Part shown: piece after piece, positions 7,359 to 62,850 of the stretch
How the letters are laid out: every line of letters starts with the position of its first letter
How positions within the stretch are numbered: position 1 is the first letter of the stretch
Assembly (NCBI RefSeq): GCF_001956985.1
Contig: NZ_CP019082.1
Location: forward strand, 2,666,001-2,730,000
Length of the DNA: 64,000 nt
Direction: 5' to 3'
From: Paludisphaera borealis
GTDB lineage: Bacteria; Planctomycetota; Planctomycetia; Isosphaerales; Isosphaeraceae
The notes under the pieces: generated by a model
Databases searched by the model: none
Seen by the model: only the letters and a program-made list of their open reading frames with translations
What the model was told of the DNA's origin: nothing
Position numbers and translations under genes: made by a program

Positions 7359-7376
7359 CTTCGGTAGGACGGCTGG

Positions 7377-8505: not shown

Positions 8506-8540
8506 GAGCCGGCCGCGCGAATCGCTCGCGCGGCCGGCTC
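8506..8540 (-). terminator. Strong GC hairpin downstream of the LEA-like gene
   Basis: Perfect 14-base inverted repeat (8506-8519 with 8527-8540) around a 7-base loop, about 65 bases past the stop of the minus-strand gene at 8604. It has no clear run of T, so it may be a terminator without a U-tract or a transcript-stabilising hairpin. Confidence 0.5.
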
Positions 8541-8603
8541 GGGAACCTGCATGATAGGACGGGGACGCGACCGCGGCGTCAAGGTGGCGCGGTCGAAATC
8601 GAG

Positions 8604-8885: not shown

Positions 8886-9013
8886 GGTGTTCTCCTTTGG
8901 CATGAATGGACCGTCGCCCGCAAAACGGACGTCGTTTTGTTTCTCGATTGATAGAACCGCAAACACCATGCCGGTGGGAGAAAGAATTGAACGACGTCGG
9001 GATTCGTCCGGCT

Positions 9014-10243: not shown

Positions 10244-10453
10244 GGGGCGACTCTCAGGGGGTTCGATCCAGCGAAACGGCCCTCCATTGTAACCAAGCCG
10301 ACCGACGATAGCCCTCTGACGCCGCGCCGGCTCGCATGTTAGCTTCGAGGTGGAAATAGCGTCCATCGGTGTTGCTGGGTTCGGGGGGGATTCATTCGCT
10401 CCGTCTCCTTTGAATCCCCCTGGACTGTACATCAAGGTTTTCAGGAGGCGAGC

Positions 10454-45686: not shown

Positions 45687-45715
45687 AATGATTCCTGCGC
45701 CTCACTCGACTCGGT

Positions 45716-46672: not shown

Positions 46673-46673
46673 C

Positions 46674-48191
46674 TCAGGCCCTCCCGTCGTGGGCCGAAGC
46701 GGCGCGGCTCGGGCTGAAGGACGACGACGGCGCGTCGTGCAAGACCCAGGTGTCCTTCGTGCCGCCCCCCTGCGAGCTGTTCACGACCAGGCTCCCCTCG
46801 GGCAACGCCACCCGCGTCAGACCGCCGGGGAGCACGAAGATCTCTTCTCCGTACAGGACGAACGGCCGCAGATCGACGTGGCGGCCGTCGAGCCGGCCGT
46901 CGACGAAGGTCGGATGCCGGCTGAGCTGAATCGTCGGCTGGGCGATGAAGCCGCGCGGGTTGTCTTCGATCTTCCTCGCGAAATCCTCGCGCTGCTCGCG
47001 GGTCGACGCCGGGCCGATCAACATCCCATAGCCCCCCGATCCGTCGACCGCCTTCACGACCAGCTTCTCAAGGTTGGCCAGGATGTGCTGCTTGTGCGAG
47101 GCGATCGTCGGCCGAAACGTCTCGACGTTGCCCAGGATCGCCTCCTCGTTCAGGTAGTAGCGAATGATGTCGGGGACGAACGGATAGATCCCCTTGTCGT
47201 CGGCCATTCCTGTCCCGAGCCCATTGGCCAGCCCGATGTTTCCGGCGCGATAGGCGCCCATCAAACCGGCGACGCCCAGCACGCTGTCGGGCCGGAACGC
47301 GAGCGGATCGAGGAACTCGTCGTCGAGCCGGCGATAAATCACGTCGACCCGCTGGAGCCCCCGCGTCGTGCGACGGAAGATCTGCCCCCGGTCCAGGACG
47401 AGGTCCCGGCCCTCGACCAGGTCGACCCCCATCTGACGCGCCAGGAAGCTGTGCTCGTAGTAGGCCGAGTTGTACATGCCGGGGGTCAAAACGGCCACGC
47501 TCGGTTCGTCGCAACCGTCCGGCGCAATGTGGCGGAGGACGGAGAGCAGCTTGTCAGTGTAATCGTCGACGGGACGAACGTTGTACTCTTCGAACAGCAG
47601 GGGGAAAAGCTGCTTCATCACTTGACGGTTCTTGAGCACGTAGCTCACGCCCGACGGGGTCCGGCAGTTGTCTTCCAAGACGAGGTAATCGCCGCGATCG
47701 TCGCGGATCAAGTCGATGCCCGAGACGTGGATGTAAATATCCTTCGGAACCCGAAGGCCGACGCAGTCGCGGCGATAGCCCGACGCCCCGAACACCAGCT
47801 CGGCCGGGATCACCCGATCCTTGAAGATCGAACGATTGTGGTAGACGTCTCGTATAAACAGATTGAGAGCCCGCACCCGCTGGGTCAGCCCGCGCTGGAT
47901 GCGGTCCCACTCGCTGGAGGAGACGAGTCGGGGGATCGGATCGAAGGGGATGATCCGTTCCACCCCCTGATCGCGGCCGTAGACCGTGAAAGTGATCCCC
48001 TGGTGTCGCATCGTCAGGTCGGCCACCTTGTGCCGCCTCTCGATCTCGGCGGCCCCCATGTCGACCAGCCGGTCGAACAGCGGCGCGTAATGGGCGCGCG
48101 GGGCGCCTTCGGATCCAAACATCTCGTCGTAGGCCGAGATCTTGTAACGGCCGAACAACACGGCCTTTTCATCGGCGTGGGGCGCTTGCAT
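46674..48191 (-). CDS. Circularly permuted ATP-grasp protein (DUF404/DUF407)
   Basis: Protein of 505 residues. Features include MFGSEGAPRAHYAPLFDRL at the start, VYGRDQGVERIIPFDPIPRL, the block DRGDYLVLEDNCRTPSGVSYVL, and VVKAVDGSGGYGMLIGP, typical for this family. It is predicted to form amide bonds using ATP, and is the first gene of the three-gene operon. ATG 48191 gives the family start; an in-frame extension to 48608 has unrelated sequence. A weak ribosome binding site makes the start less certain. Confidence 0.92.
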   Translation of the reverse strand: MQAPHADEKAVLFGRYKISAYDEMFGSEGAPRAHYAPLFDRLVDMGAAEIERRHKVADLTMRHQGITFTVYGRDQGVERIIPFDPIPRLVSSSEWDRIQRGLTQRVRALNLFIRDVYHNRSIFKDRVIPAELVFGASGYRRDCVGLRVPKDIYIHVSGIDLIRDDRGDYLVLEDNCRTPSGVSYVLKNRQVMKQLFPLLFEEYNVRPVDDYTDKLLSVLRHIAPDGCDEPSVAVLTPGMYNSAYYEHSFLARQMGVDLVEGRDLVLDRGQIFRRTTRGLQRVDVIYRRLDDEFLDPLAFRPDSVLGVAGLMGAYRAGNIGLANGLGTGMADDKGIYPFVPDIIRYYLNEEAILGNVETFRPTIASHKQHILANLEKLVVKAVDGSGGYGMLIGPASTREQREDFARKIEDNPRGFIAQPTIQLSRHPTFVDGRLDGRHVDLRPFVLYGEEIFVLPGGLTRVALPEGSLVVNSSQGGGTKDTWVLHDAPSSSFSPSRAASAHDGRA

Positions 48192-48610
48192 AGAGTGCCG
48201 CCAGAGGGGCGCGAGGGCGCGGAGTATGAATCCCACGAACCATCGGCCCGTGGCAACAAGCGAACTGAGAGGTGGGAGAGGAGGTGAGATCCGTAGCCGT
48301 CGCTCGGCCGGTCCAGCAAAGACAAGCCCGACGTCGGGGATGCGGTTCGGGAACGCTTGTCGTTCGATGCGGCAAGTCGCCTCCGCCCTCGATCGCTCGA
48401 AGGCTACTGATCTCACTCGTAGTTGTAGCACGCCGTCGTGCCCATGACCAGAGCGAAGGATCGCGCGTGGCAAGGTTTCCCCACCGCCGGCGACGTCGAG
48501 GAATCCGTGGAAGTCCAAAAGTTGGGACAGGATTCGTAAACCCATTGCGAACAGGTAGAATAAACTAAGTGGATCAGAGAAACGGCCCACACACTTTGTG
48601 CGTCCCATTC
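48192..48610. other. Divergent intergenic region, about 420 bases
   Basis: It separates the ATP-grasp operon (minus) from the five-gene operon (plus) and should carry both promoters. I see no repeat or RNA. An AT-richer patch just before 48569 (AGAATAAACTAAG) may be the -10 region of the plus-strand operon; this is a guess. Confidence 0.4.
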
Positions 48611-50230
48611 ATGTTCAAGCGATTCGCGACCTCCGGCGTGTTCTGGCTCACGGCCGCCCTGCTGGCGACGTCCGTTCCGCGTCCGGCGTGCGCGCAGCAG
48701 GATCAAGCGATCGCCTCGGGAATTCAATTCCTTCGCGGCAGGGCGTCGACGCGGCCGGTCGGCGAGTCGGCCATGATTGCGCTGGCGTTGCTCAAGTCCG
48801 ACGTCCCGTTCGGCGATCCGGCCCTGTCGGCCTGCCTGACCAAGATTCGCTCGCGCTTCTCCAGCAATAGCTACACACCCGAGCAGACGGGCGGCGTCGA
48901 CGTCTACGAGGCCGGGGCGATCGCGATGGCCCTGGCCAATCTCGACCCCTCCGAGCGCGGCGGCCAGCTCGACATGATCGCCGCCTTCCTGATCGGCAAG
49001 CAGAAGGCCAACGGCAGTTGGGACTACTCGGCGCGTTCGTTCGGCGACACTTCGATCTCGCAATACGCCGTGCTGGGGCTGTGGGAATGCGAGAACAGCG
49101 GCGTCGACGTCCCCCCTTCCGTCTGGGACCGCGCCGCCCAGTGGTACATGTCGGTCCAGAGTTCGGCGGGGAGCTGGAACTACCATCGCGACCAGGGGGG
49201 CGAGCCGGAAACCGTCTCGATGACCGCCGCCGGCGTCGGCAGCCTTCTGATCTGCCGCCGCCAGCTCGAAAACTACCGCCAGTTCCAGAAAGGGGCCAAC
49301 CCCTACCTGACGCCCGTCGAGACCGGCGGACTCACGACCGACTACCAGGTCGTCTCCAGCCCGGCGGCGATCAACGCGGCGATCGCCAAGGGCCTGGGCT
49401 GGATCGGCGCCAATTTCAACACCGGCAACGCGCCCCTCTTCGGCAAGTCGAAGTACTACGGCCTCTACGGCATCGAGCGGATCGGCGCCCTGGCCGACCG
49501 CCAGATGATCGGCCGACTCGACTGGTTCGAAAAAGGGAGGTCGCACATCCAATCGACTCAGGCTCCCGGAGGCGGCTGGAGCGGTCAATTCGGCGACGAG
49601 ATGAACTCCGTGTGGGCCCTCCTCTTCCTGACCAAGTCGACGGCCAAGACACTCAAGCGGATCGAGGTCCGCAAGCTCGGCGCGGGAACCCTGCTGGGCG
49701 GCCGGTTCCTCCCCAGCGACCTCTCGACGATGACGGTCGCGGGAGGGCGGATCATCAGCCGGCCGATGAACGGCGCGGTCGAAGGAATGCTCGACATCCT
49801 CGAAGACCCGCGCATCCAGAACGCCGACAAGGCGGTCGCCGGCATGATCGAGCGCTACCACGCGCAAGGCCCGTCGGCGCTCCGTCCTCATAAAGACCGG
49901 CTCCGCAAGATGCTGAGCCATCGCGACCAGGGCGTCCGCCAGGTGGCCGCCTGGGCTCTCGGCCGCACCGGCGACCTCGACGTCGTCCCCAACCTGATCG
50001 CCGCGCTCCAGGACGCCGACGCCGACGTGGCGGCCACGGCCCGCCAGGGGCTTCAGCTCATCAGCCGCCGGATCGACGGGCCGGCCGCCGCCGATCCCAC
50101 GAACGCCCAGGCGAAACAGGCCGAGGCGGCGCAGTGGAACCAGTGGTACGACCTGGTCCGGCCGCTCGACGCCTCGGGGGCCGACGACGACGAGGCCGAC
50201 GCGGCCAAACCGGGGAGGCCGTCGTCATGA
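48611..50230 (+). CDS. Secreted prenyltransferase/squalene-cyclase-fold repeat protein with HEAT-like tail
   Basis: Protein of 539 residues with a signal peptide (SGVFWLTAALLATSVPRPACA). The middle has alpha-toroid repeats of the terpenoid-cyclase/prenyltransferase type: QANGSWDYS-like segments (QKANGSWDYSARSFGDTS, SSAGSWNYH, GGGWSGQF), without the DxDD or DDxxD motifs of active cyclases. The last part has HEAT-like repeats (VRQVAAWALGRTGDLDVVPNLIAAL). It is probably a binding scaffold in the periplasm. First gene of a five-gene operon: its TGA overlaps the next ATG. A GTG at 48569 is an alternative start. Confidence 0.8.
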   Translation: MFKRFATSGVFWLTAALLATSVPRPACAQQDQAIASGIQFLRGRASTRPVGESAMIALALLKSDVPFGDPALSACLTKIRSRFSSNSYTPEQTGGVDVYEAGAIAMALANLDPSERGGQLDMIAAFLIGKQKANGSWDYSARSFGDTSISQYAVLGLWECENSGVDVPPSVWDRAAQWYMSVQSSAGSWNYHRDQGGEPETVSMTAAGVGSLLICRRQLENYRQFQKGANPYLTPVETGGLTTDYQVVSSPAAINAAIAKGLGWIGANFNTGNAPLFGKSKYYGLYGIERIGALADRQMIGRLDWFEKGRSHIQSTQAPGGGWSGQFGDEMNSVWALLFLTKSTAKTLKRIEVRKLGAGTLLGGRFLPSDLSTMTVAGGRIISRPMNGAVEGMLDILEDPRIQNADKAVAGMIERYHAQGPSALRPHKDRLRKMLSHRDQGVRQVAAWALGRTGDLDVVPNLIAALQDADADVAATARQGLQLISRRIDGPAAADPTNAQAKQAEAAQWNQWYDLVRPLDASGADDDEADAAKPGRPSS

Positions 50231-51183
50231 GCGTTTCCGCCGTCCCGTCTGGCGCGGTCGCAGAACCGCCGAAGCCCTTCGAGCCGCGCGTGCTCGGCGA
50301 ATCGCGGTACGACCGCGTGACCTCGTTCCTGATGGCCGTGGTGCTGGGCGCGTTCCTGGTGGTCGGCTGGCTCGGCCTGGTCTTCGCCAGCAACCAGGAG
50401 TACACGTCGCGGGTGACGTCCCCCTTGCACATCATCGAGGTCTTCGGCGGCGGCGGGGGGAGTCCCGACGGCACGCCGGGCTCGACCGAGAAGGTCGACG
50501 TCGCCGGCGCCGACGCCGCGCCGCAGGCGTCGAACAACGAGGAGACCCCCGGCGACTTCGAGCAGCCCTCGATCCAGACCACTCCCGGCGCGATGCTCGA
50601 CGCCGCCCTCGACGCCGGCCAGCAGGTCGCCGAGATGGACATCGGGCCGGCGATGCCCAACGGCGGCGCCGTCGCCAGCGGCCGACGCGCCTCGAAGATC
50701 GGCACCGGTGGCCCCGGCCTGGGATTCGGGCCGGGCGACGGCGGCGTCAGCCGCGAGAATCGCTGGAGCGTCATCTTCCCCGACGGCCAAAGACCCGAGG
50801 AATACGCCCGCCAGCTCGACGCGCTGGGGGTCGAGCTCGCCGTCGTCGCGGGCAAGGATCAATTGACGTACGTCACCAACTTCTCGGCCGCGAATCCCAC
50901 CAAGCGGACCGGAGTCAGCCGCGCCGAGAACCGGCTCTACTTCATCTGGGAAGGGCGGCTGCGCAAGTCGTCGGACCTCGCCCTGCTCCGCAAGGCGGGC
51001 ATCGAGGTCGGCGAGGGGACGGTCTTTCAGTTCTACCCGCCGGGGGTCGAGGACCAGCTCGCCGACCTGGAGCGCCGGTACCGCGGCCGGACGCCGGGCG
51101 AGATCCGGGTGACGCGGTTCGGCGTCATCCCCAACGGCGACTCATACGCCTTCAAAGTGCTCGCTCAGGAAACTTTACGGTAA
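50227..51183 (+). CDS. Single-pass membrane protein, second gene of operon
   Basis: Protein of 318 residues, not recognised. A short cytoplasmic N-terminus precedes a membrane segment (SFLMAVVLGAFLVVGWLGLVFA), a glycine/proline-rich region (GGGGGSPDGTPGSTEK) and a folded C-terminal part (ENRWSVIFPDGQRPEEYARQLDALG... GVIPNGDSYAFKV). The topology resembles TonB-like or linker proteins, but no TonB C-terminal motif is evident. ATG 50227 overlaps the previous stop (ATGA). It is probably anchored in the inner membrane and reaches into the periplasm. Confidence 0.7.
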   Translation: MSVSAVPSGAVAEPPKPFEPRVLGESRYDRVTSFLMAVVLGAFLVVGWLGLVFASNQEYTSRVTSPLHIIEVFGGGGGSPDGTPGSTEKVDVAGADAAPQASNNEETPGDFEQPSIQTTPGAMLDAALDAGQQVAEMDIGPAMPNGGAVASGRRASKIGTGGPGLGFGPGDGGVSRENRWSVIFPDGQRPEEYARQLDALGVELAVVAGKDQLTYVTNFSAANPTKRTGVSRAENRLYFIWEGRLRKSSDLALLRKAGIEVGEGTVFQFYPPGVEDQLADLERRYRGRTPGEIRVTRFGVIPNGDSYAFKVLAQETLR

Positions 51184-51250
51184 GCTCTATCGTCACGGAT
51201 CGTTCCATCGCCGCAACGCCCCGCATCGCCCCGGAGTCGACGTTCGCACC

Positions 51251-54200
51251 ATGGCAACACTCGAAGTCCATGACGCCCAGGGACGCGTGCGGTTCGTCGA
51301 TCTGGCGATGGACCACCCCGTCCTGTTCGGCTCGAGCGCCTCGTGCGACATCGTCGTCGAAGGGGCGGGAATCATGCCGGTGCAGGGACGAATCCGCTGG
51401 GGCAAGAACCGGTTCAAGGTCGACGCCTCGCCCGACGCCGAATCCCTGATCGTCAACGGCCGCCACGTCGTCACGACGAGCCTGCATCAGGGGGACGAGC
51501 TGACCGTGGGGCCGTGCCGGATCTTCGTCCTCCGGCTCGACGACGCGGCCGACGGCCGGGCCGCCGCCCCTCAACGACCGCGCCCCGACGAGGAGCCCAC
51601 GCGGGTCCTGGAAGACGGCGTCGCCCCGGCGCCCCGGCCCGCCGCGGTCCAGGTCCAGGCCAGGCCGAGCATGCCGCCGCGCCGCGAGGCGCTCTTCGAG
51701 AACGACGCCTTGCTCGACGCCCTCCACATCGGAACGCCCGCGCCTCAGCCGGCCCAGGCGCCCGTCCGAAGCGACGACAAGGAGCATCGCCGCAAGGTCG
51801 ACGTGAAGCCGAAGGCCGCGCTCTGGTCGAGGCTCCGCGACCGTCTCGTTCGCGCTCGGTCGGCCGACGACGCTCCGGGGCGCGAGGTCATCGCCCGGTC
51901 GCCGCTGGTCCTCAGCCTGGTGGTCATGCTGGCCCTGCTGATCGGCCTCGGCTTCTGGCTCCGGACCATCATCAACCAGACCCTCGCCTCGCGAACCTAC
52001 AACCGCGCCGTCTCGTTGATGGAGGACGGCGACAACCCGACCGCGATCCGCGAATTCGACTCATTCGTGACGGCGAACCCAACCGACCCCCGCGTCCCCA
52101 AGGCGCGGACCCTGCGCGCCCTGGCCGACGTCCGCCAGTACGTCACCGTGACCGGCGCCACCTGGTCGGCCGCGCTCGAGGCCGCCGCCGCGATGGTCGA
52201 CACGGTCGGCGACGAGGCCGAATTCCGCGACGAGAAGTCCGAGCTGGCCGAGCTGGTGATCCGGATCGGCGAGGGGCTGGCCGACCGGGCGAAGCGGTCG
52301 GTCGACGCCAAGTCGCTGGCCGAGGCCGAATCGGCGATTCCTTTACACGCGCGGATCGCCGGCGAGTCGGCGCAGGCGTTCCTGACCAAATCGCGGCTCC
52401 CCAGCCTGCTGGACGAGGCCCGCGCGGCGGTCCGCAAGGCCCAGATCCGGACCAATGCGCTGGCGGTCATGGACAAGGCGATCGAGAAAGGCTCGGCGGC
52501 CCAGGTCTACAAGGCCCGCGACGCGCTCGTCGATCAATACGCCGACCTCAAGACGGACGCCGAACTTTTGAGCCGGATGGTCCGCGCCAACGACCTGGTG
52601 CGCGCCGCCGTCAAGGTCGACCGCACCCATCGGCCGGCGGCCGTCGCCGAACGTCCCGAGCCGCTCGGCCCGCCGACGACCCTGGTCCTCCGGTCGTCGC
52701 CCGACGTCCCCGCCGCCCCGCCCGCCGCCGACGCGATCGTCTACGCGGCGGCCGACGGGATCGCCTATGCGATCGACGCGGCCACCGGCGCTCCGCTCTG
52801 GCAGACGGCCGTCGGCCTGTCGTGCCCGTTCGTCCCCCAACCCGTGCCCGGCGACCCCACCGTCCTGGTCTTCGACGCCCGCCACGGCGAGCTGGCGCGG
52901 CGCAATGCGCAAACCGGCCGGCTGCTCTGGCGGCTCGAACTCGGCGAGACCGTCGACGCCCCGCCGCTCGTACTGGGCGAGCAGCTTTTCCAGGTGCTCC
53001 CCAGCGGCAAGACGGTCGTCGTCGCGCTCGGGACGGGCGAGCTTCAGGCCACGATCGACATGGGCTTCCCCGCCACGCGGACGCCCGCCGGCGACGAGTC
53101 GGGACGGTTCCTGTACGTGGCCGGTCGCAAGGACTGCCTGTTCGTCCTCGCCCGCGATCCGCTCGGCTGCGCCGCGGTCGAATACCTCGGCCACACGGAA
53201 GGCTCGATCGCCTGCGCCCCGGTGCGGCTCGGCCGGTTCCTGATCGTCGTCGAGAACGATCGACCGAGCGACGGCCGATGGCGCGTGATGGTCCTCGACG
53301 ACGACGGCGCGAAGCCGCGCGTCGTTCAGGAAATCCCCGTCGCCGGCTGGACCTGGGACGCGCCGCCGTCGTCGGGCTCGACCATCTGGGCGGTCGGCGA
53401 CCGGGGAGGGATCGAGGCGTTCGCGGCCGGCGACTACGCGAGCGCCAACCCGTTCCATTCGCTGGCGAAGCTCAGCCCCGACGCCCAATCGTCGGGACCG
53501 GCTTACGCCTGGACGGCCACCGACCGCGAGATCTGGATCGCCGCCGAACGATCGGGCCGGTTCGACCTCGACGCCGAGCGCGGCGAGATCGCCAGCCGCG
53601 CCCTGCTCGGCAAGCTCGGCGTCGCCTCGGCGCCGATCCAGGGCGCCGCCAGGCGGGTCGTGCCGACCTTTCAAGACCCCGAGACCGGCGGCCTGGCGCT
53701 CCGGGGCGTCGATCCCGCGACCGGCAGGATCGCCTGGGAGACGGTCGTCGGCGCGGCCTGGCCGACGTCGCCGACCGCGATCGCCGACGGCGACGCCCTG
53801 GCGAGCGTCGGCCTGACCGGTCAGCCGATCCGGCTCCCCCGCGCCACGCTGCAAAAGGGGGGCTTCATCACATCCTCCCTCCCGAAGCCCGGCGACGCTC
53901 GCTTGCCCGAGGGGACGCTCCTGAACCTTCAGGCCAAGGACGAAGCCGCCTCGCTGATCGCCCCCCGGCCGGGCGCCGACGCGGTCTGGACCGAGGACGC
54001 GAAGCAGCCCGGCCGCTGGAGCCGCATCGAACTCCCATCGGCCCTGGCCGCCGCGCCCGTGTTCTGGAACCGGGCGTTGCTGGTCCCCGGCGAGGACGGC
54101 CGGGTCTACCTGATCGACCCGCACACCGGCACGTCGCGCGCCGAGCCCCTCGTCCCGGCGTTCGACCGCGACCGCCGGGGCCGCTGGCTGGCACCGTGCC

Positions 54201-54781
54201 GGACCGGCGACGACGTGGTTTTCTTGGCTGAGGAAGGCGGCCGGGTCCGCCGCGTCGGCCTCAAGCCGTCCCCCGCGCCCCGACTGGTCGTCGAGGCGGA
54301 AACCCTGCTCGACCAGGGGGTGATCGCCAACCCCGCGTGCATCGGAGCGGCCGTGATGACGGCGACCGCCGACGGCCGCGTCCGCGCGCTCGCCGCCCGC
54401 GATCTCAGCCCGATCGGCTCGTGGAAGCTCGACGCCCCGATCCTCGGCGCCCCCCTGGCCGTCGACGGCCGCCTCGTCGTGCTCGACGCCTCCGGCGGCG
54501 TCCTCCTGTTCGGCCGCGACGGCCAGCGCGCGTGGTCGAGCAAGCTCGATGCGCCGGCCTCGGGCTCGCCCCTGGTCGTGGGGGACGCCCTCTGGATTCT
54601 CGACCGCAAGGGAAAGGCCCACGGCCTGGCGATCGCCGACGGCAAGGAAGTCGAGACCGTCGATCTCGGCGTTCTGCCCGCCGGCGGGTTGGCTCTGGTG
54701 GGAGGCGACGTGTTCGTCCCCTCGGGCCGCGGCGCGCTCCAACCGCTCGTCCTCGGTCGACCCGCAGGCGCCAAACCGTGA
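51251..54781 (+). CDS. FHA domain, membrane segment and PQQ-like beta-propeller protein
   Basis: Protein of 1,176 residues. The N-terminal FHA-like domain spans about residues 1-100: FGSSASCDIVVEGAG, VQGRIRWGKNRF, SLIVNGRHV and LHQGDELTVGPCRIFVLRL. A low-complexity Pro/Ala linker follows, then a membrane segment at 218-237. A helical region comes next, and from about residue 490 a large PQQ-like propeller (VYAAADGIAYAIDAATGAPLWQ and several DGRVY-type blades). FHA domains bind phosphothreonine, so the cytoplasmic end could be a kinase target and the propeller its periplasmic partner. Third gene of the operon. Confidence 0.85.
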   Translation: MATLEVHDAQGRVRFVDLAMDHPVLFGSSASCDIVVEGAGIMPVQGRIRWGKNRFKVDASPDAESLIVNGRHVVTTSLHQGDELTVGPCRIFVLRLDDAADGRAAAPQRPRPDEEPTRVLEDGVAPAPRPAAVQVQARPSMPPRREALFENDALLDALHIGTPAPQPAQAPVRSDDKEHRRKVDVKPKAALWSRLRDRLVRARSADDAPGREVIARSPLVLSLVVMLALLIGLGFWLRTIINQTLASRTYNRAVSLMEDGDNPTAIREFDSFVTANPTDPRVPKARTLRALADVRQYVTVTGATWSAALEAAAAMVDTVGDEAEFRDEKSELAELVIRIGEGLADRAKRSVDAKSLAEAESAIPLHARIAGESAQAFLTKSRLPSLLDEARAAVRKAQIRTNALAVMDKAIEKGSAAQVYKARDALVDQYADLKTDAELLSRMVRANDLVRAAVKVDRTHRPAAVAERPEPLGPPTTLVLRSSPDVPAAPPAADAIVYAAADGIAYAIDAATGAPLWQTAVGLSCPFVPQPVPGDPTVLVFDARHGELARRNAQTGRLLWRLELGETVDAPPLVLGEQLFQVLPSGKTVVVALGTGELQATIDMGFPATRTPAGDESGRFLYVAGRKDCLFVLARDPLGCAAVEYLGHTEGSIACAPVRLGRFLIVVENDRPSDGRWRVMVLDDDGAKPRVVQEIPVAGWTWDAPPSSGSTIWAVGDRGGIEAFAAGDYASANPFHSLAKLSPDAQSSGPAYAWTATDREIWIAAERSGRFDLDAERGEIASRALLGKLGVASAPIQGAARRVVPTFQDPETGGLALRGVDPATGRIAWETVVGAAWPTSPTAIADGDALASVGLTGQPIRLPRATLQKGGFITSSLPKPGDARLPEGTLLNLQAKDEAASLIAPRPGADAVWTEDAKQPGRWSRIELPSALAAAPVFWNRALLVPGEDGRVYLIDPHTGTSRAEPLVPAFDRDRRGRWLAPCRTGDDVVFLAEEGGRVRRVGLKPSPAPRLVVEAETLLDQGVIANPACIGAAVMTATADGRVRALAARDLSPIGSWKLDAPILGAPLAVDGRLVVLDASGGVLLFGRDGQRAWSSKLDAPASGSPLVVGDALWILDRKGKAHGLAIADGKEVETVDLGVLPAGGLALVGGDVFVPSGRGALQPLVLGRPAGAKP

Positions 54782-54801
54782 ACGCGAGGAGGCTCCGCAC
54801 C

Positions 54802-57291
54802 ATGAACACCGCCACTCGACTCTCGATCGCCCTCTTCGCGCTCCTCGCGACTCCAACCCTGTCGCAAGCCGAGGAAGCCCCGAACCCGGCCGCCGCCCCC
54901 CCCGCGTCGGCCGACCTGCTCCGCTCGTATCCGTTCGACCGGATCACGCTCCTCGACGGCACGGTGGTCGGCGTCGAGCCCGTCAGCCCGCGCCCGCTGC
55001 CGGTGATCGATCAGGCCAAGCTCCAGGCCGAACGCGATCGCAAGCGGTCGACCAAGGGAGTCCTTCCCCCCGACGGCAACATCGGCCTCCCCGGCGAGCC
55101 GAGCAAGTTCAAGCCGGCCGAGGCCAAGAGCGAGATCGAGAAGGAGGCCGACCGCGAGATCACCGTCCACCTGCTTCAGGACCGGCCGGGCGCCCGCGGC
55201 GACATGCGCGACTTCAAGGTCAAGCGCGCCCACATCAAGAAGGTTGAATACTTCGAAGATATGTTGCTGGCCGAGGGCGAGCGGCTGGTGCAGGCGCGCG
55301 GGTTCACCAAAGCGTTCGAGCACTACCTCCGCGTCCAGTCGCGCAACCCCGCGTGGCCGGGGCTGGTCGACCACGTCAACGACTTGCTCTTCGCCGAGGG
55401 CCGCCAGGCGCTGCACGACGGCGAGGGCGAGCGCGGCTTGCGCCTGCTCCGCGAACTGCTGGCGCGAAAGCGCGACTACCCGGGGCTGCTCGACCAGATT
55501 TCGTCCGCCTACGCCGTCCGGATCGTCCGCGCGTTCGACCTGGGCCTCTACCCCAAGGCGAGGCGCATCCTCCACGAGCTGGAGACGATCGCGGCCGAGC
55601 ACCAGCAGGTGAAAGACCTCCGGACCAAGTTTGCGACCGCCGCGAGCGAGCGGGCGAAAGCCGGCGGATCGGTCTCCGGGCCCGAACGACTCGACGGCCT
55701 GACCGAAGCCCTGCGGATCTGGCCGACCGCCGACGGGCTCGAATCCGAGTACGTCCGCGAGTTCCAGGCTGTGCCGACGCTCGACGTGGCGGTCGACGAC
55801 GTCCCGTCGCCGCTGGGCCCCTGGATTCGGAGCCCGGCCGACGCGCGGGTCGCCCGGCTGTTGTTCCTGCCGCTGCTCGCCTCCGACGGCGACGAGGCGA
55901 AGCGAGGCAAGCTCGCCGGCCAGCTCGCCGCCGGCCTGGAATCGACCGACCTCGGCCGTCGCCTGATCGTCCGGATCAAGCCCGACATCCCCTGGTCGGA
56001 CGGCTCGCGGTCGACGTCGGCCGTGGACGTCGCCCGCGCGCTCATCGACCGCTGCGATCCTCAGAACCCGGCCAAGTACCAGGCGCGGTGGGCCGAGCTG
56101 CTCGACCGCGTCGACCCCAGCGGCGAGGGGCAGCTTGAACTCCGGCTCAAGCGACCGCTGCTCAAGCCCGCGTTCTGGCTCGATGCGCCAATCGGCTCGG
56201 CCCACGCCGGTTTCGACGGCCGCGTGGTCGTCTCGGCTCGGGAGCGCGTCCTGGTGAGCAACGGCCCGTTCAACTGCGCGGTCTCGACGCCCCGGTTGAT
56301 CGAGCTGCGAGCCCGGTCCGAATCGAGCGCCGGCGGCGGCGCGGCGAAGCTTAAACGCATTCGCGAATTCCGTTACGATCGCCCCGCGGCGGCGCTGGCC
56401 GCCTTCTTGCGAGGCGACGTCACCGTGCTGGCGCACGCGCCCGCCGACCAGGTCGCGACCCTCGCGGCGACGCCGGACGTGAAGGTCGGCCGCTACGCCC
56501 AGCCCGCGGTCCACGTCCTCGCGCTCGACGGCCGCAACCCGGCGATCCGCAACCGAATGCTCCGGCGCGGGCTGTCGTACGCGATCGACCGCAAGGCGCT
56601 GCTCGAAGAAACGGTGCTCAGACACCCGGCTTCGAACGCCGACGCCCCCTCCGACGGCGTCTTCCCCAAGGGGGGCTACGCCGACGCGCCGGGGGTCAAG
56701 CCGCTGACTCACGACACCGTGCTGGCGGCGGCCCTGGTGACCCTGGCCCGGGGCGAGCTGGGCAAGGCGCCGATCAAACTCAAGCTCGAATACCCGGCGA
56801 TCGCCGAGGTCCGCGCGGTCGTCCCTCGCCTGGTCGAGGCGTTCCGGCTGGCGCGCGTCCAGATCGAGGCCGTCGAGCTTCCCGAATCGCAGCTCGAATC
56901 GGAGCTGCGCGCCGGGCGGCGGTTCGACCTGGCCTACCGCGTGCTGCGATGCGACGAGCCGGTGCTCGACGCCGGCCAGATGATCTGCCCCGGCTACGAC
57001 GCGCCTCCCGCCGTCAACGCGCTCGCGTCGGCCGCCAGCCCGCGCATCCTTCAGCTCTTGCTCCAGCTCGAACAGGCCGCCGAGTGGCCGACCGCCAAGG
57101 GGCTCGCGCTCCAGATCGACCGCGAGCTGCGCGACGAGCTGCCGGTGCTTCCGCTCTGGCAGACGACCGCCCACTACGCCTGGCGGAACCGGCTGAAAGG
57201 CCCCGCCGAGGAAACCGGCTCGCTCTATCAAGGCATCGAAACCTGGGAGGTCGCCCCGTGGATCGCCAAAGATCCCTGGAACGCGAAATGA
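54802..57291 (+). CDS. Secreted solute-binding-like protein (SBP_bac_5 fold) with helical N-terminal domain
   Basis: Protein of 829 residues. A signal peptide (TRLSIALFALLATPTLSQA) is followed by about 300 residues with TPR-like helices (ALHDGEGERGLRLLRELLARK). The second half resembles family-5 oligopeptide-binding proteins: LIVRIKPDIPWSDGSRSTSAVDVARALID, and the late MLRRGLSYAIDRKALLEE. In that family this fold binds peptides for ABC import, but no permease genes lie here. GAGGAGG before ATG 54802 gives a strong start. Its TGA overlaps the next ATG. A scaffold or sensor use of the fold is inferred. Confidence 0.8.
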   Translation: MNTATRLSIALFALLATPTLSQAEEAPNPAAAPPASADLLRSYPFDRITLLDGTVVGVEPVSPRPLPVIDQAKLQAERDRKRSTKGVLPPDGNIGLPGEPSKFKPAEAKSEIEKEADREITVHLLQDRPGARGDMRDFKVKRAHIKKVEYFEDMLLAEGERLVQARGFTKAFEHYLRVQSRNPAWPGLVDHVNDLLFAEGRQALHDGEGERGLRLLRELLARKRDYPGLLDQISSAYAVRIVRAFDLGLYPKARRILHELETIAAEHQQVKDLRTKFATAASERAKAGGSVSGPERLDGLTEALRIWPTADGLESEYVREFQAVPTLDVAVDDVPSPLGPWIRSPADARVARLLFLPLLASDGDEAKRGKLAGQLAAGLESTDLGRRLIVRIKPDIPWSDGSRSTSAVDVARALIDRCDPQNPAKYQARWAELLDRVDPSGEGQLELRLKRPLLKPAFWLDAPIGSAHAGFDGRVVVSARERVLVSNGPFNCAVSTPRLIELRARSESSAGGGAAKLKRIREFRYDRPAAALAAFLRGDVTVLAHAPADQVATLAATPDVKVGRYAQPAVHVLALDGRNPAIRNRMLRRGLSYAIDRKALLEETVLRHPASNADAPSDGVFPKGGYADAPGVKPLTHDTVLAAALVTLARGELGKAPIKLKLEYPAIAEVRAVVPRLVEAFRLARVQIEAVELPESQLESELRAGRRFDLAYRVLRCDEPVLDAGQMICPGYDAPPAVNALASAASPRILQLLLQLEQAAEWPTAKGLALQIDRELRDELPVLPLWQTTAHYAWRNRLKGPAEETGSLYQGIETWEVAPWIAKDPWNAK

Positions 57292-58916
57292 CCGCAAGGT
57301 TGCTCGCGGTTCTGCTGCTGCTCGCCGGTCCGTCGTTCGCCCGAGCCGACGCGCCGGCGAACGTTCCGGCGAAGCCCGCGACCACGCCGGCCGACAAGGT
57401 GAACGCCGAGCCGATCGACCGCCAGCCGTACCGGATCGAGCTGCACCTCGTCGCCGACCCGTCCGCCCGGATCGATGAATCTTCGCGTGAGAACCTGGTC
57501 GATCGATGGCGCGATCTGGTCCATCGGTTCATCGGCGCGTCGTGGTCGATCTCCGTCGCCCCCCGTCCCAGCCCGCTGGTCGGCGACGGCCTGGCGCGAC
57601 TCAAGGCCGATGCGATCACGGGCTTCGATCCGGCGCTCGACAAGATCTGGCTGGTCTGGGTCGATTCCGACCCCGAGGACGGCGGCCTCGTCTTCTCGGG
57701 ACGCGAATACGACGTCGCGACCCGCTGGCTGGGTCCGCTCCAGCAACAGAAAGCCCCGTCGCGACGCGACCTGCCCCGGTCGCTGTTCGCGATCTCCCGG
57801 AACCTGTTCAGCCCCTCGGCCCTGATCACCGGCCAGGAAGGGGGCCGGGCGCTGCTCAAGGTCCGAGGCTCGGCCCTCGCGCCGGCCAGCGACCTGGGCG
57901 CGGTCGTCGTCAAGGGGACGACGTTCATCCCGCTGCGACTGGTCAGCATGAAGGACGATTCCGTGCGGATCAGCCGGATCGCCTACACCTACCTCGTGGC
58001 CGAATCGATCGAGGGTTCGTCGGCTCGTTGCGCGATCGTGAGCGCGTTCCGCGACCCGCTCACGCAGCGGATCTCGCGTCCGAACACGCTCGCGGCGCTC
58101 GGCGTCAAGGCGGGCGACTCCCCCTTGCACCTGCGGTTCGTCACCAAGACCGACAAGACCCCCGCCGCCGGCTACACGCTGACCGAGCGCGCGGTGCCCG
58201 ACGGCGTCGCCCGCGAGGTCGGCATGACCGACCGGTCGGGCCGCATCCTCGTCGAACCGGGGACCACCCGGGCCCTCGTCAAGCTCCGCCTGCTGGCCGG
58301 CGGTTCGGAGCCTCTGGCCGAGTTTCCGATCATGCCCGGCGAAAGCTCCGAGGAGCGCGAAGTCGCCGTCGACCCCCTGCCCCTCGCCGCGAAGTACCAG
58401 GTCCGGCTCGACGCCCTGCGAGACGAGGTCGTCGACCAGGTCGCCCTCCGCGGCCGACTCGAACGGATGATGCAGTCGCGCGTCGACGGCGACGAGTGGG
58501 ACGGCCTCGACGCCCTGCTCAAGGAATACGCCGCCCTCCCCGCCCCCGCGACCTTCACCGAAAACCTCACGAAGATGAAGGACGAGGCGACCAAACAAGC
58601 CTACGAAACCTCCAAATCCACGGTCCTCACCAAGAACCTCCAGGCGCAGTTCAGCGACCTCCAGGCGCTCATCGACGGCTACCTCAGCAACGAGGCCTAC
58701 GGCGCTTACTCGGAAGTCCTCCAGAAGAAGAAGAAAGACGTCGCCGACGCAGCCAAACTCACCGCCAAGAAGAAAGCCGCCCGCCCCGCGCCGGCGGAGG
58801 CCCCAACGGTCGCGGAGACGCCTCCCGCTCCCGCCCCCAAAGCCGCGCCGCCCGCACCCGCCCCCAAATCCGTACCCAAAGCCCCCCCAAAAAACGATTC
58901 GGGTGTGCCGTTTTAG
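57288..58916 (+). CDS. Hypothetical secreted protein, last gene of operon
   Basis: Protein of 542 residues, not recognised. Signal peptide (RLLAVLLLLAGPSFARA), then a mixed alpha/beta region beginning RIELHLVADPSARIDESSREN, a beta-rich middle and a helical segment (YAALPAPATFTENLTKMKDEATK). The C-terminus is Lys/Ala/Pro-rich (KKKAARPAPAEAP and PAPKAAPPAPAPKS), likely disordered. ATG 57288 overlaps the previous stop (ATGA), so it is translationally coupled with the solute-binding-like gene. Confidence 0.72.
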   Translation: MTARLLAVLLLLAGPSFARADAPANVPAKPATTPADKVNAEPIDRQPYRIELHLVADPSARIDESSRENLVDRWRDLVHRFIGASWSISVAPRPSPLVGDGLARLKADAITGFDPALDKIWLVWVDSDPEDGGLVFSGREYDVATRWLGPLQQQKAPSRRDLPRSLFAISRNLFSPSALITGQEGGRALLKVRGSALAPASDLGAVVVKGTTFIPLRLVSMKDDSVRISRIAYTYLVAESIEGSSARCAIVSAFRDPLTQRISRPNTLAALGVKAGDSPLHLRFVTKTDKTPAAGYTLTERAVPDGVAREVGMTDRSGRILVEPGTTRALVKLRLLAGGSEPLAEFPIMPGESSEEREVAVDPLPLAAKYQVRLDALRDEVVDQVALRGRLERMMQSRVDGDEWDGLDALLKEYAALPAPATFTENLTKMKDEATKQAYETSKSTVLTKNLQAQFSDLQALIDGYLSNEAYGAYSEVLQKKKKDVADAAKLTAKKKAARPAPAEAPTVAETPPAPAPKAAPPAPAPKSVPKAPPKNDSGVPF

Positions 58917-59285
58917 CGCTTGGCGCTCGCGGATGGAGCTTGGTAAATTGCGAATGGCTCCGGTCGTCACCCTCTGGGTCCTCTAGACCGCTATGCGGAT
59001 CTACTTGAGGATGCTTCGGCATACCTCGTTAAAGTACGGCCGGAGCCGCTTTCCCGTCGCTCGTCGCCGTGTCCATCGAATTCGGAACATCAGTTCTCCC
59101 CGGCCCCCGATCCGCTCGATCCCGGTACGGCTCGAAATCGTTGCGCAATCCCCGGCGCGGTCCTCGGTTTTACGTGACTTGTATTGGTGACTCAGTGTCC
59201 TGAGCTGGAAGTTTACGGACTTCTGAGGCAGAACACTCGACTCGTGGTCCCTGTCGTTTTCACGCAACAGCGAATCACCTGGTCG
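58917..59285. other. Intergenic region before the kinase gene, about 370 bases
   Basis: No gene, RNA or clear repeat was seen. It may hold the end of the five-gene transcript and the promoter of the kinase gene. Confidence 0.4.
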
Positions 59286-61556
59286 ATGCCGAACGGGGGC
59301 ATGCTCGTGTCATCCACCAACGTCGAAGCCTGCTCAAGCGTTGAATATGCGGGTTCGACCGGGACGTTCTCGCGGTTCGAGGACCTCCGGATCGTCGCGG
59401 CCATGGAGGAGTATGTTTCCCTTGTCGATGGCGGCCAGCCGCCCGCTCGGAGTGAGTTCCTCGCCCGCCACGCGTCGATCGCCGAGCCGCTGGGCGCGTG
59501 CCTCGCCGGAATGGATCTCGTCGACGAGGCTGCCTGGATGTTCCAATCGACCTCGAATTGCGCCTCGGCGGTGGAGGCACCTCCCACGTTCGTGCTGGGC
59601 GACTTCCGGATCATCCGGGAGATCGGCCGGGGCGGCATGGGCGTGGTCTACGAGGCCGAGCAACGGTCCCTCGGGCGCCGGGTGGCGCTGAAGGTTCTGC
59701 CGTCGGCCGCGTCGATGGACCCTCGCCAGCGGCAGCGGTTCCAGATCGAGGCGCAGGCCGCGGCCCTCCTCCACCACGAGCACATCGTCCCGGTGTTCGG
59801 CATCGGGACCGATCGGGGCGCCCACTTCTACGCGATGCAGCTCATCGAGGGCAAGCCCCTGACGCGCATCATTCGCGAGCTTGCGGCCAAGCCTTCGGTC
59901 GACTCGGAAGGCGATGGTTCGGGACTTGCCGGCGAACGGGCGCGCCGGACGAGGCCGCCGGGGCAATCATCGTCGGGCCGCGCCCATGGGCGGGAGACGG
60001 CCCGGCTTGGACTTCAGGCGGCCGAAGCGCTCGAGCACGCCCACATGATGGGGGTCATTCATCGCGATATCAAGCCGTCGAACCTCCTGATCGACGGCCG
60101 AGGGAGTCTCTGGATCGCCGATTTCGGCCTGGCTCGACTCCCTCAGGAAGACCTCGACCTGACGCGGACGGGCGACCTCGTCGGCACGCTCCGCTACATG
60201 AGCCCCGAGCAGATCCGCGCCGAGCGCGGCGGGGTGAACGCGGCGACCGACATCTACTCGCTGGGCGTGACCCTCTACGAGCTGTTGACGCTCCGTCCCG
60301 CCTTCGACGCCGCCGACCGCGAGGAGCTGGTCAAGCGAATCCTCGACGACGAGCCGGCGCCGCTCCGACGGATCAATCCCGCGATCCCCAAAGACCTGGA
60401 GACGATCGTCCTCAAGGCCGTGGAGAAGGTGCCCTCGGCCCGGTACGCCTCGGCCGGCTCGCTGGCCGACGATCTCCGGCGGTTCCTCAACGATGAGCCG
60501 ATCCGGGCGCGTCGGCCGGGCCTCGTCGATCGCGCGATCAAGTGGTCGCGGCGCCACCGACCGGCCGTCGTGGCCGGGCTCGCGGCCCTTATCTTGACTC
60601 TGACGGTCAGCACGACAGTCCTCTGGGCGGCCAAGCGGCGCACCGACGCCACGCTCGACAGCAACAGGAAGGCGCTCGTCGAGGAACGCCTCGCGATCGA
60701 GTATTCCCTCGGCGCGCTCGATCAGATCACGCGCCCCCTGGCCGCGTCGATCGGTTCCGACCCCACGAGTGAAGCGGACGCGAAGCGGGTGCTGCTGTGG
60801 GCGCTCTCGTTCTACGACCGCGTACCGAAACTGGTCGCCAACGCCGAGATGCTGAAGGAGGTGTACCCCAAGGCCTATCGCCAGGCGGGCTTCTGCCGGA
60901 TGGCTCTGGGCCGGGCGCAAGGCCGCGACGACTACCGAGAGGCGATCCGCCACTACGAACAACTCGCGGCCTCGCATCCCGAGCAAATCTGGCTCCGCAC
61001 CGGCCTGATCGAGACCTTGTACGAGTACTCGCGATTCTTGAAGGCCCCCGCCGATGGACCGGAGGCCGAAGCCACGTTCCGCCGGGCCCTCGCGGTCGCC
61101 GAGGCGATGATCGCCGACACGGCCGTCGCGCAGCCTTGCTTCACGACGGCCCTGGTCGGCCCCCTCAACGACCTGGCGTGGGCCCTGGTTCTCACCCCCG
61201 ACGTCAACACCTCCGACGCGGAGGCGGCCGCCCGCCTGATCAGACATGCGACCGAATGGGAGCCCAGGATCGCCGGATTCTGGAACACCCTTGGAGTGGC
61301 CCAGTACCGTCTCGGACACGACGCGTCCGCCGCCGCGGCCTTCCAGAAATCCATGGATCTGAACAATGGCGGCGACCCCGCTGACTGGCTCTTCCTGGCG
61401 GCTCTCGATCATCGCACCGGGAGCAAGGAACAGGCCCGCCTGTGGTTCGATCAGAGCATCGCCTGGATGGACCGGAATCGGGGAAAAGACATGGTTCGCG
61501 ACGCCGAACTCGCGCGATTTCGTGACGAGATCGCCGGGGTCACGGGGTTGAAGTAA
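59286..61556 (+). CDS. Serine/threonine protein kinase with membrane segment and TPR-like C-terminus
   Basis: Protein of about 756 residues. The kinase domain has the glycine loop IGRGGMGVVYEAE, the lysine in VALKVLP, catalytic HRDIKPSNLLID, DFGLAR and SPEQIRAE. An insertion of about 40 residues (around PSVDSEGDGSGLAGERARRTRPPG) lies before the catalytic loop. A membrane segment (PAVVAGLAALILTLTVSTTVLWAA) follows the kinase, then a TPR-like periplasmic part. This is the planctomycete PknB-type layout. The start is uncertain: ATG 59286 or 59301, the latter after a GGGGG site. It is on the same strand as the FHA operon, about 370 bases later. Confidence 0.92.
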   Translation: MPNGGMLVSSTNVEACSSVEYAGSTGTFSRFEDLRIVAAMEEYVSLVDGGQPPARSEFLARHASIAEPLGACLAGMDLVDEAAWMFQSTSNCASAVEAPPTFVLGDFRIIREIGRGGMGVVYEAEQRSLGRRVALKVLPSAASMDPRQRQRFQIEAQAAALLHHEHIVPVFGIGTDRGAHFYAMQLIEGKPLTRIIRELAAKPSVDSEGDGSGLAGERARRTRPPGQSSSGRAHGRETARLGLQAAEALEHAHMMGVIHRDIKPSNLLIDGRGSLWIADFGLARLPQEDLDLTRTGDLVGTLRYMSPEQIRAERGGVNAATDIYSLGVTLYELLTLRPAFDAADREELVKRILDDEPAPLRRINPAIPKDLETIVLKAVEKVPSARYASAGSLADDLRRFLNDEPIRARRPGLVDRAIKWSRRHRPAVVAGLAALILTLTVSTTVLWAAKRRTDATLDSNRKALVEERLAIEYSLGALDQITRPLAASIGSDPTSEADAKRVLLWALSFYDRVPKLVANAEMLKEVYPKAYRQAGFCRMALGRAQGRDDYREAIRHYEQLAASHPEQIWLRTGLIETLYEYSRFLKAPADGPEAEATFRRALAVAEAMIADTAVAQPCFTTALVGPLNDLAWALVLTPDVNTSDAEAAARLIRHATEWEPRIAGFWNTLGVAQYRLGHDASAAAAFQKSMDLNNGGDPADWLFLAALDHRTGSKEQARLWFDQSIAWMDRNRGKDMVRDAELARFRDEIAGVTGLK

Positions 61557-61617: not shown

Positions 61618-62053
61618 ATTCCCTTCTCCCTTTACGGGAGAAGGTGCCTCGCAGGGCAATAGTGTTCGGCGCGAGATTTGAGGCGGCGTTGGAAGCGAAC
61701 CGATTATTAGCCGGCCTCCGTGAGGCCGGTCCCATACCGACGTGGAGTGCGGCGGCTTGCCGCCGCGCTTGGCGCGCGGCCCATGCGGGAGCAGGCTCCC
61801 GCACTCCAAATCGGAGGCCGAACCGCTCCCACGTCGCGCGTGCCGGGGCCACAACCCTGGCCATAAAACTACGCGGACCATCTCACGCCACCCGATCGGC
61901 ATCGCACGTCCGTGAGCAATCATCGCGGCGAACACTATTGCCCCAACGGGGCAGATGACGGGTGTTCGATCGCCGAGGCGCTCGAGAAACCCCCGATCAT
62001 GACCCCCTCATCCGACCCTCGGCTGACTTGTCTCGCAAGGAGGGAAGGCATGC
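61618..62053. repeat. Second copy of the 134-base palindromic element, split by an inserted unit
   Basis: The left part (61618-61656, starting ATTCCCTTCTCC) and right part (61950 to 62053, with GATCGCCGAGGCG and ending GGCATGCTCGC) match the intact element at 14859-14992 and its right flank. Between them lies the 290-base inverted-repeat unit at 61654-61943. Confidence 0.75.
61654..61943. mobile_element. Putative MITE, 290 bases, nested in another repeat
   Basis: Terminal inverted repeats of 21 bases with one mismatch, GGGCAATAGTGTTCGGCGCGA (first 15 bases exact at 61654-61668; inverse at 61929-61943). No transposase is encoded. Inside are further palindromes such as GGCGGCTTGCCGCC and GGGAGCAGGCTCCC. 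No target duplication is clear. Confidence 0.6.
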
Positions 62054-62118: not shown

Positions 62119-62748
62119 TCACGCCCCGCGCCCGTCGGCTTCGGCTCCCGCACGGACGAGGGCTTCGGCTTCCGACTCGTCGGAGTCGGCTGGGTCGAAC
62201 CCGATCTGACCCTTTCGGGCACCGGCTTTGGTGAAGAGCTTGGCGATCAGGGTTCCGCCGCGGAAGAGTCGGAGCAGCGAGGGGATCGGCAGGTTGTCGA
62301 TGTGGCTGTACCACTCGGTGACCATCCGGGTGAAGTCGAGCATCTTTTCGAGCTGCTCGCGCGTGTATTGCTCCGACTCGTCCCCCGCCTTGGCTTCGCG
62401 GACGCAGTTTTCGAGCAGCAGGATGGTCGGGTCCATCTCGCGCCGCTTGCGCTCGGCCATGATGACGCGGAACGTCTCCATCACATCCTTGAGCGCCTCG
62501 AAACGGTCGCGGCGGTCGCCGATGATGTGGACGCGACGCACCACGCCCCAGGTGATCAGCTCGCGAAGGCTCGTCGAAACGTTCGAACGGCTGACGTCGA
62601 GGAGCTTGCTGATCTCCTCGGCGTCCAGCGGCGAGGGCGAGACGAACAGCAAGGCGTGAACCTGGGCCATCGTCCGGTTGATGCCCCAGGCCTGCCCCAT
62701 CTCTCCCCAGTGAAGCACGAATTTCTGCGCGGCCGGTGTGAGCGTCAC
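62119..62748 (-). CDS. GbsR/MarR-type transcriptional regulator
   Basis: Protein of about 209 residues. The winged helix-turn-helix starts LTPAAQKFVLHWGEMGQAWGI, with NRTMAQVHALLFVS, then LDAEEISKLLDVSRSNVSTSLRELITWGVVRRVH typical of GbsR. The C-terminal half is helical (MLDFTRMVTEWYSHIDNLPIPS) with an acidic tail. I chose GTG 62748 since it gives the family N-terminus; ATG 62793 has a purine site too close and would cover the operator candidate. It is likely autoregulated. It faces the MsrB gene's 3' end. Confidence 0.83.
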   Translation of the reverse strand: MTLTPAAQKFVLHWGEMGQAWGINRTMAQVHALLFVSPSPLDAEEISKLLDVSRSNVSTSLRELITWGVVRRVHIIGDRRDRFEALKDVMETFRVIMAERKRREMDPTILLLENCVREAKAGDESEQYTREQLEKMLDFTRMVTEWYSHIDNLPIPSLLRLFRGGTLIAKLFTKAGARKGQIGFDPADSDESEAEALVRAGAEADGRGA

Positions 62749-62776
62749 GGTTGATACCGCCCTGTCTGGTAAAACA

Positions 62777-62807
62777 GTTTCTACAGAAATCATACTCCCT
62801 GTGAAAC
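62777..62807. promoter_or_regulatory. Candidate operator upstream of the GbsR-type gene
   Basis: Near-inverted repeat GTTTCTACAG (62777-62786) and CTGTGAAAC (62799-62807), 12 bases apart, just before the regulator's coding start. An adjacent GTAAAACAG resembles a third half-site. It fits a MarR/GbsR autoregulatory site. Confidence 0.4.
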
Positions 62808-62850
62808 GGTCGAACAAGCAGGCGAAACCTCCCCCGAGCGCGGCTTCCGT

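Follow-up and report, generated by a model that had tools for sequence, protein, structure and literature searches.

A conserved gene set of Planctomycetia that may form an ion-driven trans-envelope machine with an ExbB-ExbD1-ExbD2 motor

Analysis of a 64,000-nucleotide stretch of the Paludisphaera borealis genome (the window; positions 2,666,001-2,730,000 of NZ_CP019082.1, here G000:C1), supported by gene order comparisons across the class Planctomycetia, suggested that five adjacent genes, g1 to g5, encode part of a trans-envelope machine driven by ion-motive force; its motor would be an ExbB-ExbD1-ExbD2 trio whose genes lie at another place in this 7.65 Mb genome (99.93 percent complete). 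We put the probability that the five genes and the trio form one machine at about 0.65; what is shown is the set of genes, their order in other families, their joint occurrence, and the motor residues. An earlier sequence-only reading of the window had proposed the five genes, together with an adjacent kinase, as a possible undescribed signalling or surface system. The five-gene unit and its character as an undescribed-looking inner-membrane/periplasmic system have held, and kinase-FHA signalling has not; the motor trio, which adjoins these genes in other families and lies elsewhere in this genome, was beyond the stretch on which that reading was based.

The motor was recognized from gene order outside the family Isosphaeraceae. 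The comparison covered 105 distinct loci, obtained from 120 by merging those with identical g2 ends; they are a non-random sample of best matches that are mutually related. We assigned 33 to Isosphaeraceae and 72 to other groups, by genome handle for G genomes and by list rank (up to L165) for named records. In 60 of these 72 loci, the sequence downstream of g2 extends for 3.5 kb or more. ExbD2 with g3 after it lies downstream of g2 in 46/60, with ExbB and ExbD1 also present in 45/60 (L211 being without a scored ExbB); g3 comes directly after g2 in three others (L121, L186, and L209), and the remaining 11 have no g3. At L209 (7735-9815), the trio is inverted and sits upstream of g2 rather than between g2 and g3. 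MotA_ExbB and ExbD matches above the Pfam cut-off were obtained at L102 and L124, the values for the L102 trio being 1.2e-25 (MotA_ExbB), 2e-18 (ExbD), and 4.9e-24 (ExbD). The helix aspartate was found in 54/54 ExbD1 and 50/50 ExbD2 proteins with a complete helix, a count that leaves out three ExbD2 open reading frames (ORFs) truncated where the locus stops. These subunit families and the Asp are those of an ExbBD/TolQR-type motor, for which a 5:2 stoichiometry would be presumed. The whole eight-gene order occurs in 2/2 f106 genomes. In genomes in which g2 and g3 are separated (G417, G260, G327, and G365), the trio, g3, g4, and g5 stand together elsewhere in the genome (4/4 genomes checked). 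Nine of 12 chosen genomes have both g2 and g3; the other three have no g2, and their g3 matches reach only E 1e-10 to 1e-12, like those of background propellers.

Seven ExbD and six MotA_ExbB matches were found in the window genome. Profiles built from the operonic trios were used to score the five MotA_ExbB loci that had been fetched, the sixth match being left out, and they singled out a trio at G000:C1:4598142-4600533, outside the window and 1.9 Mb from g1-g5. Its ExbB scored 244 bits versus 186, 165, 162.5, and 122 at the four other loci, its ExbD1 136 bits versus 36 at most, and its ExbD2 153 bits versus 34 at most. The ExbD2 of this trio was found in 40/45 genomes of the order and in 26/26 good ones, with two weak cases (a marginal match of 5.8e-4 in G036 and a match in pieces in G003), and in a tree of ExbB proteins the trio groups with six other Isosphaeraceae trios (94/94). 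On these scores it is the probable cognate motor of g1-g5, and the unit has, in our reading, been split in Isosphaeraceae and not reduced.

The five genes themselves are conserved well beyond P. borealis. Relatives of g2 were found in 42/45 genomes of the order and in 254/297 genomes of the class (228/261 good ones), usually as a single match in each; in a phylum sample of 392 genomes, 40 match g2, all 40 inside the class (two profiles, apparently run on the same sample). Within Isosphaeraceae, g1 is upstream of g2 in 29/30 loci with room (the exception is L055), g3 directly follows g2 in 31/31 other loci with room, and g3, g4, and g5 occur together in 23/25 (the exceptions are L049 and L052). 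The presence of g2 (42/45) and the order of g3 after g2 (31/31) are above chance, and g1-g5, originally grouped on spacing and direction within a single stretch, do stay together in this family. A second, diverged g2-like ORF (172 bits) was seen directly after g2 at L210 (6661-7617), a locus with a kinase-ExbD2 fusion, and extra g2-like matches occur in G351, the genome of L118. Another g2 relative is at L208, in a record labelled Alphaproteobacteria MarineAlpha3_Bin4, which is perhaps a planctomycete contig binned wrongly.

An ORF check of the window found g1-g5 and the kinase gene g6 all present on the + strand. As had been described, the genes at 48.6-58.9 kb are codirectional, and the first two and last two overlap by ATGA (g1/g2 at 50227-50230; g4/g5 at 57288-57291); of the middle gaps given as 68 and 20 bp, that between g3 and g4 is indeed 20 bp, and that between g2 and g3 measures 67 bp. 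The five products had all been called exported or membrane proteins. In a hydropathy scan (19-mers, threshold 1.6), one strongly hydrophobic segment each was found in g2 and g3, and no segment was flagged in g1, g4, or g5; these three are probably exported, as judged by eye from their N-termini.

The g2 protein (50227-51183) is a candidate force transducer. Its single hydrophobic segment agrees with its earlier description as a single-pass membrane protein. A transmembrane (TM) stretch lies at about residues 35-53, a linker at 61-171, and a globular C-terminal domain at 172-318. In the structure model, a helix spans residues 27-60, the predicted local distance difference test score (pLDDT) is <50 over 61-171, where the linker is probably disordered, and residues 172-318 are structured; the predicted model therefore has a TonB/TolA-like layout of TM segment, disordered linker, and globular end. 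Modelled alone, the end domain gave a pLDDT of 90.3 and a predicted template modelling score (pTM) of 0.83. No match to g2 was found in Pfam or NCBIfam, and neither a PDB sequence search nor comparison of the whole model with solved structures (Foldseek, VIA-align) gave a useful one. A role for g2 as an ExbD-like pore helix was ruled out: there is no conserved Asp in the TM segment, and at the Asp position immediately before it some rows have E or N.

We regard g3 (51251-54781) as a candidate inner-membrane scaffold. A cytoplasmic FHA-like domain (residues 1-95) is followed by a TM segment at about 219-237, a periplasmic helical part that is TPR-like by weak matches, and a PQQ/BamB-type beta-propeller. 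Pfam matched FHA (2.5e-5) and PQQ_2 (1.2e-21), which together with the one TM segment confirmed the proposed FHA-TM-propeller arrangement; Yop-YscD_cpl also matched at 1e-4, below the Pfam cut-off. The residues by which FHA domains bind phosphothreonine are another matter. Across 65 FHA domains of g3 proteins, one of them from the window, the Arg of the GR motif is kept in 6 and the Ser of SxxH in none (0/65), with the His kept in 56/65 and the Asn of the NG turn in 62/65; R, S, and H are all lost from the window's own domain. All three are kept in 8/8 FHA domains elsewhere in the same genome, which were its best Pfam matches and so form a favourable control. On these counts we reject phosphothreonine reading by the g3 FHA, which the sequence-only reading had supposed; the domain is better taken for a docking domain in which the fold is retained and the phosphothreonine pocket would be gone.

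The cytoplasmic modules of g3 and ExbD2 are, judging from the loci compared, swappable. In 83 loci with g3, its N-terminus is FHA-like in 64, a kinase in 2 (L180 and L183), and neither in 17. In five f101 genomes it is a zinc ribbon by cysteine pairs (5/5, by eye), and the two that were scanned gave Zn_ribbon_5 at 2.1e-5 (L287) and Zn_ribbon_4 at 0.019 (L289), both below the cut-off. The ExbD2 proteins of 52 operonic loci carry a zinc-ribbon cysteine pattern in 49 cases and a kinase in 3 (L118, L205, and L210), where Pkinase (1.4e-47 to 3e-51) and ExbD lie in one open frame; L118 is from a one-contig genome, and the ExbBs of the three loci form one clade (97/92). Kinase labels across the gene order loci derive from the L118 kinase as the only query, the five fusions being confirmed with Pfam. 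The fused kinases retain what we take to be the VAxK lysine and the HRDxKPxN and DFG/DMG motifs. Forty-eight loci have both modules typed: 30 combine an FHA-like g3 with a ribbon ExbD2, 13 have neither module in g3 and a ribbon, 3 neither and a kinase, and 2 a kinase in g3 and a ribbon; none pairs FHA with a kinase. A weak GYF_2-like stretch is present in the window genome's ExbD2 (16.3 bits versus a cut-off of 25.8) and, among three further ExbD2 proteins of Isosphaeraceae that were scanned, in one (14.8 bits). If the ExbD-kinase fusions are real in the cell, they would be a direct link from Ser/Thr phosphorylation to an ion-driven envelope motor. In the f3 genomes L116 and L120, we noted that g3 starts with a small helical stretch that also precedes the kinase in the L180 and L183 fusions (by eye), as if a kinase had been lost from between.

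The remaining three proteins would make up, with the g3 propeller, the exported side of the unit. The start of g1 (48611-50230) is more likely ATG 48611 than GTG 48569 because a signal-like N-terminus is seen there (by eye). QW motifs bear out the alpha-toroid repeat protein first suggested, with the start moved and HEAT repeats added after the toroid part (HEAT_2, 1.5e-9); the g1 family profile matches the squalene-hopene cyclase structures 2sqc/3sqc at 1.2e-11 over profile positions 97-191 and HEAT/alphaRep structures around 434-488. An active squalene-hopene cyclase was ruled out because the window protein is without the D.DD (DxDD) motif; looser acidic motif matches occur in other g1 rows, one of which (L053, 212) is within the toroid part. 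In g4 (54802-57291), an SBP_bac_5 match above the cut-off (8.9e-23) follows a long N-terminal part, residues 1-366 of which gave no Pfam match when scanned alone; the scan of g1-g5 matched no other transporter family, in line with the description of g4 as solute-binding-like and without transporter genes. The g5 protein (57288-58916) has a Pro/Lys-rich tail and no Pfam match, as also found for its relatives (0/10 members scanned), and its best hit in a PDB sequence search, at E 0.023, was not convincing.

In the machine that we propose, ExbB and the ExbD1/ExbD2 pair would convert ion flow into movement of g2 or g3, and g2, with its TM segment, flexible linker, and globular end, would carry that movement through the periplasm, as TonB and TolA do. 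As the inner-membrane scaffold, g3 may use its cytoplasmic domain, together with that of ExbD2, to dock, place, or gate the motor. The periplasmic part, acting on the outer membrane or cell wall, would consist of the g3 propeller together with g1, g4, and g5, all three probably exported.

Several findings weigh against this proposal. The trio is unlinked to g1-g5 in Isosphaeraceae (0/33 loci), where it may work with a different partner. Genomes of f101 have g2 and g3 in divergent orientation and apart, and the trio was not seen in the stretches read. At the midpoint root of the ExbB tree, which is for drawing only, the Isosphaeraceae group sits with the window genome's four paralogues, opposite the operonic ExbBs, and therefore the tree alone is no proof of a moved operonic trio; this group is nearest to the operonic set only if the root is on the long stem of the paralogues (100/97), and the program warns of long branches. 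L174, another low-scoring ExbB, is placed among the operonic ExbBs, at the end of a very long branch. No g2 match was found in 43/297 class genomes, and outside Isosphaeraceae g1 adjoins g2 in just 30/57 loci with room. The g2 end domain alone matches no solved fold (the lowest Foldseek E was 0.084 and the highest Z 3.3, over 57 residues, VIA-align re-examining only Foldseek's own match list), and the motor-binding His of the TonB/TolA SHLS motif is absent from g2, with no His at aligned positions 24-55 in 27/27 rows.

For the machine as proposed, the most likely job, which we put forward tentatively, is a Tol-like upkeep or remodelling of the envelope. We favour it because the unit is present in most of the class, mostly in one copy and untied to a nutrient locus, and because no TonB domain and no TonB-dependent receptor turned up in the genome: at E 1e-3, neither TonB_C (PF03544) nor the receptor family (PF00593) had a match in the window genome, and each matched 3/14 control genomes. 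The six MotA_ExbB matches of this genome are thus present despite the lack of either partner in these searches, and a mostly single-copy motor system present in the majority of class genomes would be a testable candidate for the power source of the outer envelope in these bacteria. A bolder version, which we consider rather unlikely, is a class-wide motor that has its own type of transducer domain and replaces Ton and Tol, being switched by exchangeable cytoplasmic modules (FHA-like, zinc ribbon, GYF-like, and, in the ExbD of some lineages, a Ser/Thr kinase), with phosphorylation directly on the motor.

Other explanations fit the data less well. Import is an unlikely job, although the SBP_bac_5 domain would suit g4 as the receiver of peptides or larger molecules taken up across the outer membrane, the missing TonB_C and receptor matches would suit a Ton substitute, and ExbBD motors are known to power Ton import (PMC12204202). 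No outer-membrane barrel or ABC permease was recognized in the family scans of g1-g5, the genome itself not having been searched for either, and recurrence of the same gene set across the class would be unexpected for a substrate-specific importer. It is improbable that g1-g5 form a motor-free, BamB-like envelope assembly complex and that the ExbB/ExbD genes merely share an ancestral neighbourhood with them: the g3 propeller is of the BamB/PQQ type, and the unlinked trio of Isosphaeraceae and the f101 arrangement could be read in this way, but the position of the trio between g2 and g3 in 45/60 other loci speaks against it, as does the similar trio kept elsewhere by genomes with the motor-less arrangement. 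We are equally doubtful of an adhesion or gliding machine like Agl-Glt of Myxococcus, which would account for one TolQ-type and two TolR-type proteins beside an FHA-TM protein, as in AglRQS/GltG (PMC3169522). The NCBIfam GltG equivalog (NF033760) does match g3, but at 16.9 bits against a cut-off of 650, no search being made for other Glt homologues, and TonB_C has no match in g3 or in the genome.

A PknB-type kinase does lie downstream of g5, as was first noted: g6 (59184-61556; Pkinase, 9.1e-41), a Ser/Thr kinase with a TPR tail, starts 267 bp (TTG 59184) or 369 bp (ATG 59286) past g5. In the 23 other Isosphaeraceae loci that extend 2 kb or more past g5, a kinase relative never follows it (0/23), which rules out g6 as a member of the unit and leaves it a neighbour only. 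That g6 phosphorylates partners read by the g3 FHA, in a phospho-signalling system across the membrane, is very improbable: its position, the genuine Pfam match of the FHA domain, and the five other loci at which this system's ExbD2 or g3 carries a fused kinase are in its favour, but the kinase is not conserved at this place, the pairing fails because the binding Arg and Ser are kept in so few g3 FHA domains (6/65 and 0/65), and FHA and a fused kinase are found together in 0/48 typed loci, a weak point because the three kinase-ExbD2 cases form one clade. The five fusions, none with FHA, may be a faint echo of the kinase idea.

Further neighbours of the unit vary among loci. Beside g1, divergent genes on the - strand (44706-48608), presumably transglutaminase-like, alpha-E-like, and circularly permuted ATP-grasp-like, are kept in 5/20 loci (L039, L040, L044, L045, and L046). 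Past g6, a regulator-like gene on the - strand (62119-62817), which we assume to be GbsR/MarR-like, has a counterpart just past g5 on the opposite strand in 12/20 loci; in the window, the kinase gene and a tRNA-Pro gene (61742-61810) separate it from g5, as if inserted.

Among known systems, the proposed machine shares with ExbBD-TonB the MotA_ExbB and ExbD families and the ExbD helix Asp, but the window genome gave no match to TonB_C or the TonB-dependent receptor, and neither a Pfam scan of g2 nor a PDB comparison of its end-domain model gave a match that would place it with the C-terminal fold of TonB/TolA. Our comparison with Tol-Pal is partial and draws its layout partly from general knowledge. 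The likeness lies in a motor combined with a single-pass, long-linker protein, a propeller, and TPR-like parts (PMC12204202); the difference lies in g2, which is without a Pfam match or a TM His, and in the two ExbD-type genes. Agl-Glt of Myxococcus xanthus likewise combines one TolQ-type and two TolR-type proteins with an inner-membrane protein that has a cytoplasmic FHA domain, GltG, which carries FHA and TonB domains and is described along with AglR/Q/S (PMC3169522). In contrast, g3 ends in a propeller and its FHA is without the phosphothreonine residues, and toroid, solute-binding, g2, and g5 proteins are not among the parts described in the portion of that paper available. Bacteria of the Planctomycetes-Verrucomicrobia-Chlamydiae (PVC) group have vWA transducers encoded with a TPR gene, tolQ, and two tolR genes (PMC12204202); these resemble the unit in pairing a TolQ-type protein with an unlike TolR-type pair in planctomycetes and in a TM-linker-globular transducer, but no vWA match was found in g1-g5, and that type is apparently a separate locus, L123, in the window genome. 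L123 (G000:C1:7326001-7342000, at 7206-11296) is another ExbB-ExbD locus; the protein encoded after it matches VWA_3 at 2.6e-5 (below the cut-off), an H+-pyrophosphatase comes further on, and the locus resembles the published PVC type. A third locus, L122 (G000:C1:7292001-7306000, at 6321-9244), has ExbB-ExbD-ExbD and then a single-pass protein without a Pfam match, with a His in its hydrophobic stretch and Pro-rich sequence after it, a TonB-like layout by eye. With the YscD/PrgH scaffolds of type III secretion, g3 shares a cytoplasmic FHA-like domain before one TM segment, as its Yop-YscD_cpl match below the cut-off also suggests; to our knowledge, YscD-type FHA-like domains do not bind phosphothreonine.

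In the literature, TonB was detected in four planctomycete genomes only (PMC3422733), and one exbB and one exbD were salt-induced in Rhodopirellula baltica (PMC2754498). No description of the g1-g5 and trio gene set was found among the literature matches listed, which mostly do not cover subscription journals and have bioRxiv preprints outside their scope. The main text of a transposon-directed insertion site sequencing study of Planctopirus limnophila (PMC10632474, with gene tables in supplements) contains no ExbD, biopolymer, TolR, MotA, FHA, or Tol-Pal, the unit is not mentioned in the portions available of that paper and of PMC12505986, and a term search of PMC12283558 found no Tol-Pal, TolQ, TolR, ExbD, or biopolymer. 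By these comparisons, the best reading is a machine that is neither Ton, nor Agl-Glt, nor the vWA type already in print. The unit thus appears to be real, conserved, and undescribed, and would belong to a kind of trans-envelope machine driven by proton motive force that is itself already known.

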